The translations under genes and the position numbers were made by a program. The notes beneath the pieces were generated by a model. That model did no database searches. It saw nothing but the letters and a program-made list of their open reading frames with translations, and was not told the DNA's origin. DNA of 64,000 nt from assembly GCF_900258045.1 (NCBI RefSeq), contig NZ_OGVD01000001.1, positions 353,001 through 417,000 of the forward strand. Reading direction: 5' to 3'. Below, piece by piece: positions 45,679-51,148 of the stretch; the first letter of the stretch is position 1; each line of letters begins with the position of its first letter. Origin of the DNA: Sphingorhabdus sp. EL138 (lineage in GTDB: Bacteria; Pseudomonadota; Alphaproteobacteria; Sphingomonadales; Sphingomonadaceae).

Positions 45679-46284
45679 ATGGCAAGCGTTATGAAGCGAA
45701 TTTTTGATATATGTGTAAGCATATTTCTTATGCTGCTTTTAGCACCACTTATTTTGATTATTGCAATACTTATATTGATGGTGATGGGAAAACCGGTTCT
45801 GTTCACCCAAAAGCGCCCGGGTATTAAAGGCTCTCCATTCATGATGGTGAAATTTCGAACCATGCGCAATGCTGTTGATAAAAAGGGAGATCCATTGCCT
45901 GATTCCAAAAGACTCACAAAATTTGGAATTTTTTTGCGCAATACAAGCTTGGATGAACTTCCTGGGCTCTGGAACGTTTTGAATGGGGACATGAGTATGG
46001 TCGGCCCAAGACCATTGCTTATGCAATATATGCCTTTGTACAATCAAGAGCAGCTTCGCCGTCATGAAGTAAAGCCGGGCATTACCGGGTGGGCACAGAT
46101 TAATGGTCGTAATGCGATCAGTTGGGAACAAAAATTTAAATATGATGTCTGGTATGTGGACAATCAGTCATTTTGGCTGGATGTTAAGATATTGTTTCTT
46201 ACGCTTGGGAAGACGATTGCACGCAAAGGCATAAATGCTGCCGATGACGCAACCATGCCCATATTTACAGGCTCCAAAAGCTAA
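45679..46284 (+). CDS. Initiating sugar-phosphate transferase (PglC/WbaP-like)
   Basis: A 201-residue monotopic phosphoglycosyltransferase. A hydrophobic N-terminal helix (about 9-34) precedes the catalytic region with FTQKRPGIKG, MVKFRTM, TSLDELPGLWNVLNGDMS and VGPRPLL, ending WAQINGRN. The size is that of the small PglC type, not the long WbaP type. It should move a sugar phosphate from a UDP-sugar to undecaprenyl phosphate and so start each repeat unit. The stop overlaps the next start (TAATG). Confidence 0.92.
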   Translation: MASVMKRIFDICVSIFLMLLLAPLILIIAILILMVMGKPVLFTQKRPGIKGSPFMMVKFRTMRNAVDKKGDPLPDSKRLTKFGIFLRNTSLDELPGLWNVLNGDMSMVGPRPLLMQYMPLYNQEQLRRHEVKPGITGWAQINGRNAISWEQKFKYDVWYVDNQSFWLDVKILFLTLGKTIARKGINAADDATMPIFTGSKS

Positions 46285-46934
46285 TGGTATCAACATCCTA
46301 TGGCATTTACGGCGCTTCTGGATGTGGTCGGGGTGTTATGCCCTTGTTGGGCTCAAGCACACAGGAATTTGATGGTGAAAGGCTTTTTATCGACGATGGG
46401 TGTGCCTTAGAATCAGTGAACGATTTCCCAGTCCTTACTTATCACGACTTTCTCGATCGGCCGTCAATCAGCAAATTTGTGACAATAGCCATCGCAGATG
46501 GGCAGGTTAGAAGAAGGTTAGCCGAACGATGTGCAAAGGACGGTCTGCGTTTTCATTCGGTAGTCGCACGCGAGCACGTTAGAATGGCCGATTGTGAAGT
46601 CAAAGAGGGCGCCATTTTCTCGCCCTATACAACGTTGACTAGCAACATACGAATAGGGCGGCATTTTCACTGCAATCTTTATAGTTATGTCGAGCATGAC
46701 TGTATCATCGGAGATTATGTTACGTTTGCCCCCGGAGTGAAATGCAATGGAAACGTCCACATTGGCGACCAGGCATATATTGGTGCCGGTGCCGTCCTGA
46801 AGCAGGGTACGCCTGAAAAGCCCCTGATCATTGGTCCTAGGGCGGTCGTTGGGATGGGGGCGGTAGTTACCAAAGATGTGCCGGCGGACGCTGTTGTTGC
46901 AGGAAATCCGGCGCGCTTGTTGAAAGAAAACTAG
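46284..46934 (+). CDS. Sugar acetyltransferase (PglD/NeuD-like)
   Basis: A 216-residue trimeric left-handed beta-helix acyltransferase. The N-terminal part is a small Rossmann-like sugar-binding domain (YGIYGASGCGRGVMPLL). The C-terminal hexapeptide repeats (IRIGRHFHCNLYSYVEHD, then VHIGDQAYIGAGAVLKQG) end in VVAGNPARLLK. A PglD relative next to a PglC-type transferase points to a UDP-4-amino sugar being N-acetylated, as in bacillosamine-type pathways. The 4,6-dehydratase needed is not seen here. Confidence 0.88.
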   Translation: MVSTSYGIYGASGCGRGVMPLLGSSTQEFDGERLFIDDGCALESVNDFPVLTYHDFLDRPSISKFVTIAIADGQVRRRLAERCAKDGLRFHSVVAREHVRMADCEVKEGAIFSPYTTLTSNIRIGRHFHCNLYSYVEHDCIIGDYVTFAPGVKCNGNVHIGDQAYIGAGAVLKQGTPEKPLIIGPRAVVGMGAVVTKDVPADAVVAGNPARLLKEN

Positions 46935-46948
46935 CGCTATTGCCAGAT

Positions 46949-48517
46949 ATGAAAAGCAATCGAAAACACCGGCGAGGCGTTCTGAAAGCGATAATCACTG
47001 CGATGTCGTCGATGGCATTGGTCCAAAAGACAAGCGCACGACAAAACGAGCAAATCGCCCGGAATAAAGATGATGAGGAACTTCCGAAGCGAAGTTCTAC
47101 CTCCGCGCGGCAAAGCGATGGAGCAACTCCATTTATACAGTCTGGGACTGGCGCGCGGGCACGAAGCTCAGATTTAAAGCTGAGGGAGGCGCCGGTCTCG
47201 CTTGAAGATTTTGGTGGCGGAATAAATGTTGAGGACAATACGCCAGCAATAATCGCAGCGCTAAAGACCAATCGACCTTTACATCTTGTTTGCCCTGTAC
47301 CTTTTGTGCGAGCCACATATCGCTTTGCCAAGACCGTTGATTTTGGCACCCTTTTTCAAAAAGATACTACCAGGGTACCAGTGGTGATCATTACCGGCGA
47401 AGGTAAAGATAAGACTGTATTGCAGTATACTGGCCCAGGTATCGGATTAATAGGCGGCGCGAACGCGCCCGTTTCAGGCGGCTACACACAGTCACTGATT
47501 ATGCATAATCTTTCATACATTGGTACGGGGCGCGTACCCGACGAAGTGATCCCATCTATTCCCTTGAGCTACTTTCGGTTTAAAACGGAGGCAAACGTCT
47601 TTGCAGGAAGCGACTCAAGCCAGACCGGCATTTACTGGGAGTTTGATGCAGCTTCAACCATCAGTAATTGCGAGATTGCTCGCTTTGGGGTGGGGATCAA
47701 AACCAGGTTGGGTTACGGAGCAACGATAAGAAGCAACCATTTTCGTTACAACAACATCGCCATTGAGCTTACGCAAGCCGTCACAACCATTACCGTGGTG
47801 GACAACGTTATTGAGCGAAACGGTATCGGCATCGCACTATATCAATCTTCGCTATGCTCGTTTCGGGGTAACGCAATACAGGGAAACTACGGCGGTTGTG
47901 ATGTCTATTCTTTTATCTGGAACAAAGGACACAAGTTCGATTCAAACTATTTTGAGGCTTCTTCCAGGGTCGTTGTTCAGGACGGTGGCAATTCCAATTC
48001 GTCGTTGGTCAATACAGCTTTTGAATTTATAAATAATATCGGGCTGAAAGTTGAACTGAAAGAGTTCGCTGAAAATTGGTCCTTTCGTCGCAACTTAATG
48101 GGGGATGTCAATACCACCAGTTCGGCTCCTGCCTTTTATTGCACAGATAATAACATCAGAGGGATTGTTGTCGAAGACAATCTCGAAAATCACGACGCTC
48201 GACTCAGATTCACTAACTACACCGGCGCAGGTGTTAAGAATCTGATAGTGCGGGATTCTCCGATAACCATAAGAACGAAATACAATATGGAAAAAATGGA
48301 AATCGGTGACAGCTCTCTCCACAAGTTGGTTGTTCCAGGTTCGAAGTCCGGTGATGCGGTCAGCGTTTCTTTCAACAAGCCGATCAACGCGGTTCAGTTG
48401 CATGGCTGGGTAACAGAAAGCGAAACTGTATCAGTCGTATTTTACAATCCGCCTTATGGCCAATTCACCAATTCAGTTGCGGGGGAACTAACAGTCGAGG
48501 TTTTTCCTAAACTATGA
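46949..48517 (+). CDS. Right-handed beta-helix (pectate-lyase-like) protein with possible Tat signal
   Basis: A protein of about 522 residues. The N-terminus has a twin-arginine-like KHRRGVLKAIITAMSS stretch, so it may be exported by Tat. After a linker, the body from about residue 90 looks like a parallel beta-helix, beginning with a pectate-lyase-type VSLEDFGGGINVEDNTPAIIA and rich in Asn turns (RSNHFRYNNIAIELTQ, DNVIERNGIGIALYQS). The start is either ATG 46949 or TTG 46940; both lack a good ribosome site. It may cut or bind the polysaccharide made here; catalytic residues were not identified. Confidence 0.75.
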   Translation: MKSNRKHRRGVLKAIITAMSSMALVQKTSARQNEQIARNKDDEELPKRSSTSARQSDGATPFIQSGTGARARSSDLKLREAPVSLEDFGGGINVEDNTPAIIAALKTNRPLHLVCPVPFVRATYRFAKTVDFGTLFQKDTTRVPVVIITGEGKDKTVLQYTGPGIGLIGGANAPVSGGYTQSLIMHNLSYIGTGRVPDEVIPSIPLSYFRFKTEANVFAGSDSSQTGIYWEFDAASTISNCEIARFGVGIKTRLGYGATIRSNHFRYNNIAIELTQAVTTITVVDNVIERNGIGIALYQSSLCSFRGNAIQGNYGGCDVYSFIWNKGHKFDSNYFEASSRVVVQDGGNSNSSLVNTAFEFINNIGLKVELKEFAENWSFRRNLMGDVNTTSSAPAFYCTDNNIRGIVVEDNLENHDARLRFTNYTGAGVKNLIVRDSPITIRTKYNMEKMEIGDSSLHKLVVPGSKSGDAVSVSFNKPINAVQLHGWVTESETVSVVFYNPPYGQFTNSVAGELTVEVFPKL

Positions 48518-48563
48518 TATCTACGATGGAAGATATAATGGCCCGCAGAAAGTCATATCGGGC

Positions 48564-49739
48564 CTAAGCCGAAGCTCTCTCCATTACCTGTTCTATCGCA
48601 TTGCAATAGGCATCTAGATCCTTGTCCGTAATAGTCGGATGAGTCAGAAACATTAAACTGGTTTCGCCCAACTCTCTGGCCACTGGAAGCCGTCTTGATG
48701 GACGGAAGCCGGTATCGTCGAACGCTTTCTCCATATATACTTCGGAACAACTGCCTTGGAATGCAGGAAAACCAATTTCATTTATCTCGGCTACAATCCT
48801 ATCGCGATGCCAGCCGCTTTTTAGACCTTGGGGTTTAACGTAGGCGTAGAGACGGTAATAGGCATGCGTAGCGTTATGATCTGGTTTCGGAACTCTTACC
48901 GCATCTGAAAAATGTTCGAGTTTTTGAGAAATCGCGCGTGCTATTAGATTCCGCCTTTTGATCCAATCCTCTAGACGCTCAATTTGTATCCTGCCAATGG
49001 CAGCTTGTACTTCAAGCATCCGCCAATTTGTACCAAAGCTCTCATGAAGCCAACGAAAGCCAGGTTGATGCTCTCGATTATATACAGCATCCCAACTTTT
49101 GCCGTGGTCTTTGTAGGACCACATTTTTGACCACAGATTCTCACTATTGGTTGTGACCATGCCGCCTTCCCCACCCGTTGACATGATCTTATCCTGGCAA
49201 AAGGACCAAGCTCCTATATCACCCATGGAACCAACCATTTTATCGCCTATTTTGGCCCCATGGGCTTGAGCGCAATCCTCAATAACATAAAGCCTGTGAG
49301 CCTTGGCTAGAGCTGTTATTCCAGCCATGTCGCAGGGCCAACCCGCCAAATGCACGGGAATAATGGCTTTGGTCTTTTTACTGATAACTGCTTCAATGGT
49401 CGTCGGATCAATATTGCCGCTATCACGATTGACGTCCGCAAAAACTGGGGCCGCTCCTGCATTTACGACAGATGAAACAGAGGCAATGAAAGTTCTCGGG
49501 GTAACAATAACCTCATCGCCAGGCCCAATCCCCAGTGCCTTGAGAGCTAGATCAAGGGCGAGCGTCCCGTTTGCCAAAGCCACAGCTTGGTTGACCCCGC
49601 ATAATTTTGCAAACTCAGTCTCAAACCTCCGCCCTTCCTGCCCAGTCCAGTAATTGACTTTGCCAGACTCAATAACACGGCTAACGGACTCAATCTCTCG
49701 CCCTGAAAAGAACGGCCAGACACCAGCTAATTTGGTAAT
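48564..49739 (-). CDS. DegT/DnrJ/EryC1 sugar aminotransferase with apparent ATT (or ATC) start
   Basis: A fold-type I PLP sugar aminotransferase. The PLP lysine is in FCQDKIMSTGGEGGM, with VIEDCAQAHGAK and NWRMLEVQAAIGRIQIERL typical of the family. The first standard start codon, GTG at 49583, falls inside the conserved VALANGTLALDLAL region. In frame upstream the sequence continues with good family homology (TKLAGVWPFFSGREIESVS, then GKVNYWTG) up to a stop at 49758. The only start-like codons there are ATT (49739) or ATC (49742), placed 6-9 nt after an AAAGGA ribosome site. It probably makes the amino sugar acetylated by the PglD-like enzyme. Confidence 0.8.
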   Translation of the reverse strand: MTKLAGVWPFFSGREIESVSRVIESGKVNYWTGQEGRRFETEFAKLCGVNQAVALANGTLALDLALKALGIGPGDEVIVTPRTFIASVSSVVNAGAAPVFADVNRDSGNIDPTTIEAVISKKTKAIIPVHLAGWPCDMAGITALAKAHRLYVIEDCAQAHGAKIGDKMVGSMGDIGAWSFCQDKIMSTGGEGGMVTTNSENLWSKMWSYKDHGKSWDAVYNREHQPGFRWLHESFGTNWRMLEVQAAIGRIQIERLEDWIKRRNLIARAISQKLEHFSDAVRVPKPDHNATHAYYRLYAYVKPQGLKSGWHRDRIVAEINEIGFPAFQGSCSEVYMEKAFDDTGFRPSRRLPVARELGETSLMFLTHPTITDKDLDAYCNAIEQVMERASA

Positions 49740-50011
49740 GATATCAGATCCTTTGGATTACTCGTTGGAAGCCCGTATTCCTATAATACTGGCTGTTATT
49801 ACTCTAAATACAGTTATTTTTTCACTTTTCCATCCAGAAAGGTTGGTTCAGGGGTCCCCTTCTATCGGAAAATTCAATAAAGTGGAATGGAGCTCTGCTG
49901 AGCTATTGAATGTTGAATCTTATATGCTATTTAGGCGTCTTTCACACTCAGAGCTTTATCGATCAATTCGCTCTTTTCCCGTTGCAGGTTTGACAAAATC
50001 ATGAACAGTTT

Positions 50012-51148
50012 ATGCGCGTACTAAGTGTATTTGGCACACGACCTGAAGCCATAAAAATGGCACCTGTGGTGAAAGCAATAGCGGAAGCCCCTGAATTGAA
50101 AAGCATGGTATGTGTGACGGGACAGCATGCTGAAATGCTCAAGCAGGTTAATGACCTTTTTGAAATAGTACCCGACATAGATCTGAAGATAATGAGGGCA
50201 GGACAAGGACTGACCCACATTACAACGACGGTCTTGGAAAAAATGGAAGAGGTCATCACAGAATTTCAACCGGATTTTGTTCTGGTGCATGGAGACACTA
50301 CGACATCAACCGCTACAGCTCTTGCTGCCTTCTACGCTGGCATCCAAATTGGCCATGTCGAGGCGGGATTGCGAACATATAATCTGCAATCTCCGTGGCC
50401 TGAAGAAGCGAACCGTCAAATCACCGGCCGACTTGCAAACATACATTTCGCTCCAACAGAAACTGCGGCCGAAAATCTGTTGAGAGAAGGCGCACCTGCT
50501 TCTTCGATCGAAGTCACCGGCAACACAGTCATTGATGCGTTAAAACTTGTTGTTTCCAAGCTTGATAAGGATGAAGAACTTCGCGCAAGCATGAAAGACA
50601 ATTTCACCACCTTGCGCGAAGATTCTCGTTTGATCTTGGTGACGGGTCACAGGCGCGAAAGCTTTGGCGGTGGCTTTGAACGTATTTGTGCTGCTCTGGT
50701 CGAGATAGCGGAAGAGTTTCCAGATGTTGATATTGTTTATCCTGTGCACTTGAACCCGGAAGTCCAACGGCCGGTTGAAAGGTTCTTGTCTGGAATATCG
50801 AATATCCACCTTGTCGAGCCGCAGGGATATTTGCCCTTCGTCTATCTCATGAATCGCTGTGACCTGATAGTGACCGATTCCGGCGGAGTGCAGGAAGAGG
50901 CACCGTCGTTAGGCAAGCCTGTGCTGGTCATGCGCGACACAACTGAAAGAATGGAGGCAGTGGATGCTGGCACCGTCAAACTCGTTGGAACCGATGTGCA
51001 AAAGATCGTGGATAACGTTCGGCTATTGCTGACAGATCAAACCGCCTATGCAAAAATGAGTGGCAGTCATAATCCATACGGGGACGGTAATGCTTGTGGC
51101 CGGATAGTTCGAAGGTTAGTTGAGCACTCGTCCGCGAAGCGCCAATAA
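50012..51148 (+). CDS. wecB: UDP-N-acetylglucosamine 2-epimerase (non-hydrolysing)
   Basis: A 378-residue enzyme that converts UDP-GlcNAc to UDP-ManNAc. It carries the family signatures [39 protein letters not shown] and [25 protein letters not shown]. The length is typical. It is followed 23 bp later by wecC, and together they make UDP-ManNAcA. A 270-bp A+T-rich divergent region with the aminotransferase gene precedes it. Confidence 0.94.

Follow-up and report, generated by a model that had tools for sequence, protein, structure and literature searches.

How is a gene translated if its reading frame offers no regular start codon ahead of its conserved coding sequence? This question is raised by an aminotransferase gene on the minus strand of the window, a stretch of 64,000 nucleotides from Sphingorhabdus sp. 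EL138, whose genome (G000) was compared to others of the same genus (G025, G028, G022 and G002). The stop-to-stop frame of the gene comprises 397 residues with no internal stop and ends at 48564. Between the TAA at 49760-49758 and a GTG at 49583, it contains neither ATG, GTG nor TTG, and the longest open reading frame with a standard start runs from this GTG to 48564 and encodes 339 residues. The 5' end reads TAA TCC AAA GGA TCT GAT ATC ATT ACC AAA TTA GCT GGT GTC TGG CCG, where the end of the AAAGGA precedes ATC 49742 by 6 nt and ATT 49739 by 9 nt. Both the lack of a standard start ahead of the GTG, which itself resides within conserved sequence, and the spacing of the AAAGGA had been described in the original prediction, and both were borne out by our reading of the minus-strand frame. 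If ATC is counted as codon 1, the GTG corresponds to Val54, and initiation at this position would remove residues 1-53, including Trp9-Pro10 and the motif NYWTG (residues 30-34). The comparisons described below point to an intact and selected UDP-sugar 4-aminotransferase gene, which is very probably translated from the non-canonical AUC 49742, with AUU at the same place in two of its relatives.

The identity of the protein and the length of its N-terminus are illustrated by its relationship to an enzyme of known structure. In its 397-residue reading, the protein matches the Pfam family PF01041 (DegT/DnrJ/EryC1/StrS) with 326 bits (cut-off 19.8, E 3.9e-97), and none of the 17 NCBIfam families listed reaches its own cut-off. 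The closest solved structure, PDB 7L7X (E 7e-161, with homology over residues 12-391 of 397), is Pcryo_0638 from Psychrobacter cryohalolentis, described as a UDP-4-keto-6-deoxy-GlcNAc 4-aminotransferase acting toward UDP-2,4-diacetamido-2,4,6-trideoxy-D-glucose (PMC8040287). Trp14 of the stop-to-stop reading, which becomes Trp9 when numbered from ATC 49742, pairs with Trp9 of Pcryo_0638 in the phmmer alignment. With this numbering, Trp9, Pro10, Thr60, Asp156, Gln159, Ser180, Gln183, Lys185, Lys215 and Asn239 agree in all 10 cases, and since the alignment is gap-free this agreement amounts to one fact, the equal N-terminal length, and not to ten. In Pcryo_0638, Trp9 and Pro10 are connected by a cis bond and the indole nitrogen of Trp9 is in contact with the carbonyl of Lys185, the Schiff-base lysine; the first residues are disordered, with density starting at Ala5 (PMC8040287). 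Given this contact of Trp9, an N-terminally truncated form should be impaired. The window gene thus resembles Pcryo_0638 in the residue count before Trp-Pro, in the catalytic residues and in the proximity of an acetyltransferase gene, but it differs in lacking a standard start codon and in containing Phe instead of Tyr229. The latter is a uracil/phosphate ligand contact and does not belong to the five residues named as strictly conserved in the paper (PMC8040287), and we do not take its replacement as defining for membership of the Pcryo_0638 type.

Table 1. Features of the aminotransferase locus and its surroundings in the window.
Feature	Position	Strand	Basis or remark
Aminotransferase gene, DegT/DnrJ/EryC1/StrS	48564..49742	-	392 codons and a stop when counted from ATC 49742; by homology, a UDP-4-keto-sugar aminotransferase of the Pcryo_0638 kind
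ATC, most likely start codon (ATT in G028 and G022)	49740..49742	-	Codon column in four genomes
ATT, alternative start codon	49737..49739	-	ATT in 3/4 genomes, ACT in G022; 9 nt after Shine-Dalgarno site
Shine-Dalgarno site AAAGGA (GAAGGA in G022)	49749..49754	-	Duplex energy to anti-Shine-Dalgarno sequence
In-frame TAA closing the frame upstream	49758..49760	-	Shared by G025 and G028 but not by G022
GTG, first standard in-frame start codon, in VALANGT motif (Val54)	49581..49583	-	Unlikely start
Leader/intergenic region, common to the divergent wecB gene	49761..50011	-	3-codon ATG open reading frame and two stretches conserved in G022
NeuD/PglB/VioB-family sugar acetyltransferase	46284..46934	+	TIGR03570 172.8 bits, cut-off 160.8; likely next pathway step
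Polyprenyl-phosphate sugar phosphotransferase (probably PglC-like)	45679..46284	+	TIGR03025 E 1.3e-76, below cut-off

The peculiar state of the start region extends to other species. A search of the genus found matches in 26 of 32 genomes, nine of which (its own included) are at least 69% identical. A comparison with related genomes had been suggested along with the original prediction, and it revealed three relatives that equally lack a nearby standard start, with no ATG found at the position in question, at protein identities of 99.5% (G025), 98.7% (G028) and 81% (G022). The codon located eight before Trp-Pro is ATC in G000 and G025 and ATT in G028 and G022, and in all four genomes it is found 6 nt after (A/G)AAGGA; together with its successor it reads ATC ATT in the first two, ATT ATT in G028 and ATT ACT in G022. 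The DNA identity to the window between 41001 and 58000 is 98.5% for G025 and 97.9% for G028 (17.0 kb each) and 75.4% for G022 (14.6 kb). The alignment of G028 to the window is unbroken over these 17 kb, and the ORF lists of G000, G025 and G022 reveal the same gene order around the aminotransferase except for a gene encoding a beta-helix protein, which is missing in G022. In G002, the position and orientation of the gene are unchanged, an ATG occupies the codon after the start column, and a GTG is found upstream. A tree of 32 homologues unites the genes of G000, G025, G028 and G022 in a single clade (support 100/100), and one origin is thus sufficient. Since G000, G025 and G028 differ very little in this region, independent support comes essentially from two lineages.

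These 32 sequences belong to a census of 107 distinct homologues with a match at E 1e-100 or better, taken from 137 loci (L001-L137), which combine the best 80 of 588 candidates of a contig search, the genus search and 30 of the 64 places of a family search, some of them overlapping. In 103 of the 107, the distance from the nearest standard start to the Trp is 3 to 13 codons. Upstream of this residue, the open frame contains no such codon in G000, G025 and G028 and only a TTG, 25 codons before the Trp, in G022. The column of the ATC is occupied by a standard start in 92 of the 107 homologues (76 ATG, 13 GTG and 3 TTG), with ATG in the Psychrobacter sequences L046, L050, L103 and L106, and the column one codon later provides one in eight more (7 ATG, 1 TTG). 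The seven sequences with a standard start in neither column comprise the four-member clade and L127, L133 and L096, where an ATG is located elsewhere nearby.

Which of the two adjacent codons serves as start had been left open in the original prediction, and the comparison favours ATC. We consider ATC 49742 the probable start since its column holds ATC or ATT in all four genomes, its distance to the Shine-Dalgarno site is fixed, and it coincides with the commonest start column of the family. For this codon, the duplex energy of the Shine-Dalgarno site to the anti-Shine-Dalgarno sequence is -5.6 kcal/mol in G000, which is better than in 8 of the 12 window genes tested, and it is -5.6 in G025, -5.6 in G028 and -5.9 in G022. 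In one sequence, weak pairing over part of this site is predicted. A variant of the same explanation, whose probability overlaps with that of the preferred reading, would place the start at ATT 49739 in G000, G025 and G028 and at another codon in G022, or would involve both tandem codons. Its duplex is slightly better (-6.1 compared to -5.6 kcal/mol), and with the site aligned to the full anti-Shine-Dalgarno sequence, a hand count gives a more usual spacing of about 7 nt instead of about 4 nt for the ATC. The presence of ATT in three genomes, the eight homologues with a standard start in this column and the ATG of G002 at the same place also speak for it. The ACT found in this column in G022, set against the consistent occupancy of the ATC column in the clade and in the family, renders this variant rather unlikely.

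The pattern of substitutions bears on whether the gene is functional. As judged from the comparison of G000 and G022, the aminotransferase gene is under purifying selection, with a dN/dS of 0.044 over codons 59-375 and of 0.264 over codons 2-58. The 20 codons upstream of the start display a value of 2.3, as in untranslated DNA, and codons 2-8, a stretch of only 21 nt, show with a value of about 1.1 no visible constraint. Among the positions that are near-invariant (at least 97%) in the other 103 homologues, 14 of the 15 located between Trp9 and Ala53 are kept in all four genomes, the exception being Ser26, which is replaced by Thr in G025, and so are 101 of 103 in the rest of the protein. The segment Trp9-Ala53 has nevertheless evolved fast, since its nonsynonymous rate relative to the rest is 1.92 for G000/G022. 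The control median is 0.99, and among the 460 control pairs, which are not independent of each other, only 3 attain the ratio of G000/G022. Against G022, the equivalent ratios are 1.86 for G028 and 2.06 for G025. The segment may thus be somewhat relaxed, or it may have changed by chance or adaptation; at the same time its pN of 0.173 is well under its pS of 0.515 (G000/G022). This roughly twofold acceleration is what a decaying or weakly expressed pseudogene, whose start was lost in the ancestor of the clade, could account for. The intact frame in four genomes, the strong constraint over codons 59-375, the retention of near-invariant positions in both parts of the protein and the absence of a second match to the protein in its own genome at E 0.001 all argue against such decay, which we regard as improbable.

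Other explanations appear less plausible still. The original prediction had also considered that an ATG might recently have mutated to ATT or that the base might be a sequencing error. We found no support for either; a nearby standard start is missing in four separate assemblies from four species genomes, and the state is shared by G022, whose protein is only 81% identical and whose synonymous divergence is near saturation (pS 0.70 over codons 59-375). The chance of an error or a recent mutation in this strain is therefore close to nil, and it is the non-standard start codon, the remaining proposal, that is supported by the same state in four species. The 339-residue form starting at GTG 49583 could draw on a G-rich stretch resembling a Shine-Dalgarno sequence, with a duplex energy of -6.2 kcal/mol, but it would be devoid of Trp9-Pro10 and NYWTG, which the family conserves and all four genomes retain, and we thus regard its use as hardly credible. 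It is also very improbable that ribosomes enter the frame from a standard start further upstream, through a frameshift or translational coupling. In G000, G025 and G028, none of the ORFs with a standard start in the 290 nt upstream extends to within 30 nt of the codon, the nearest longer minus-strand ORF upstream in the window (at least 80 residues) ends at 49999, and the ORF of an ATG in the leader (49833-49822) is only 3 codons long. An upstream frameshift of the kind envisaged by the original prediction is thus conceivable only in G022. There, the same ATG opens an ORF of 32 codons (L004/L140) that is in another frame and overlaps the start; an in-frame TTG is located 17 codons upstream of the column (-51), with a Shine-Dalgarno energy of -0.4 kcal/mol compared to -5.9 for the ATT.

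Several further properties of the region were investigated. An invertible segment that would supply a different 5' end was rejected; 48400-50150 contains a single 12-nt inverted pair, which does not flank the gene, and the gene resides in the same orientation beside wecB in G000, G025, G022 and G002, with G028 being collinear over 17 kb. The region contains no match to a known structured RNA at the Rfam gathering score, and a promoter scan returned one site compared to a shuffle mean of 2.5. In the leader shared with wecB, which has otherwise diverged, the minus-strand stretches TTCAACATTCAATAGCTCAGCA (49896-49917) and TTTCTGGATGGAAAAG (49825-49840) are conserved in G022. Neither was retained as the signal of a regulon; an exact match to TTTCTGGATGGAAAAG occurs once in the genome and sites with 2 mismatches four times, compared to three for the reversed control, and TTCAACATTCAATAGCTCAGCA is found in the genome only at its own site.

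The surroundings of the gene place it into a polysaccharide cluster, in which genes for a tyrosine autokinase, a sugar-phosphate transferase, a NeuD-family acetyltransferase and the beta-helix protein are followed by the aminotransferase on the opposite strand, wecB, a UDP-ManNAc dehydrogenase and gmd. A candidate for the 4,6-dehydratase partner, a match to PF02719 (G000:C4:184631-185509, E 3.3e-121) in an open frame of 649 residues, is found elsewhere on the same contig. On the basis of this match, the cluster and the homology to Pcryo_0638, the aminotransferase likely catalyses a step toward a 2,4-diacetamido sugar, with substrate and product assigned by analogy. The gene is convergent with the beta-helix gene (46940-48517) and divergent from wecB, opposite to the surrounding polysaccharide genes, and it has the same orientation in G002. 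At the equivalent place in G022 (L140 7732-8090), the alignment suggests that only a remnant of the 3' end of the beta-helix gene remains. The closest named loci are from sphingomonads, and the upstream region of L006 (G024, of the same genus) reads like that of L031 from an uncultured Sphingomonadaceae bacterium. In a search of plasmids, the best match among the best 10 of 117 records is 66.6% identical. Two plasmid records from Neisseria gonorrhoeae (NZ_CP119142.1 and NZ_CP119140.1) are about 2.17 Mb each, a size that suggests chromosomes.

Initiation at codons of this kind has precedents, one of which is probably found in the same genome. We located infC in 31 of the 32 genomes of the genus at 33 places and read 28 of these loci (L142-L169, with L155 from G000). 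In 27 of the 28, an ATA follows GGA GTA, a site of the Shine-Dalgarno type, and two further codons and precedes GCT GCA; in the 28th, L164, the translation reads Ile. No ATG, GTG or TTG is found between the upstream stop and the ATA in 20 of the 28, including G000; a TTG or ATG is present somewhere upstream in the other eight, and in four loci an ATG follows eight codons after the ATA. From this conserved context, infC of the genus, including G000, seems to start at ATA, which would make it a second gene of this genome that probably starts at an AUH codon. The titles and abstract openings covered by our search contain no report on an AUA-started infC in this genus, a weak negative. In other bacteria, infC starts with ATT in E. 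coli and ATC in Streptomyces, and IF3 represses such starts in both (PMC5472188). The aminotransferase gene shares the ATH start codon with infC, whose own start is repressed by IF3, but infC is autoregulated, and a comparable reason is not known for a sugar aminotransferase.

A similar state is described for sigR of Streptomyces, whose IF3-repressed start is GTC in 32 and GTT in 2 of 34 species (PMC5472188). Common to both genes are a conserved non-canonical start, a conserved Shine-Dalgarno site and a third base that is C or T among species; they differ in the first base and in that sigR encodes a regulator whose start has been proven by experiment, whereas the aminotransferase is an enzyme known here from its sequence. 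Another case is pncA/bbe22 of Borrelia burgdorferi, for which an AUU start is supported by experiment and a crystal structure (PMC13398362). It also encodes a metabolic enzyme and has a required N-terminus before the annotated start, so that databases list a truncated pncA, but its start rests on those experimental data and that of the aminotransferase on sequence comparison. The use of AUU was also reported for a fragment of Yersinia rcsD (PMC10191623), and in an in vitro system, a smaller share of the products that start at AUU with the anticodon CAU was full-length when more IF3 was present (PMC10158994). Conserved starts outside AUG, GUG and UUG are very rare, and in the reconstruction by Belinky et al., only one of 61,358 ancestral AUG starts and one of 5,080 GUG starts had changed to AUU (PMC5622118). 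Our literature search, with most subscription papers outside its range, found no polysaccharide aminotransferase with an AUC or AUU start, which is a weak negative. Such starts are thus known as a kind, and the aminotransferase is a new example.

From these properties we infer a mechanism in which the AAAGGA Shine-Dalgarno site would hold the 30S subunit at the start and the initiator fMet-tRNA would decode AUC or AUU despite the third-base mismatch. Since IF3 represses such starts in E. coli and Streptomyces, the yield of protein would probably be low and might respond to IF3, whose control of the aminotransferase start is plausible by analogy; an effect on surface polysaccharide may follow. 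If restricted to standard starts, a gene finder would remove 53 residues, including Trp9, or call the gene broken. Within one genus, the AUC and AUU starts of the clade can be compared to orthologues that start with AUG, and whether the unusual codon is regulatory or tolerated is thus directly testable. As a tentative and on balance doubtful possibility, the AUC/AUU start may be kept by selection, in which case the supply of the diacetamido-sugar precursor, and with it the composition or amount of surface polysaccharide, would depend on the level of IF3 or on initiation fidelity, and a small clade of sphingomonads would have such IF3-sensed control of an envelope sugar.
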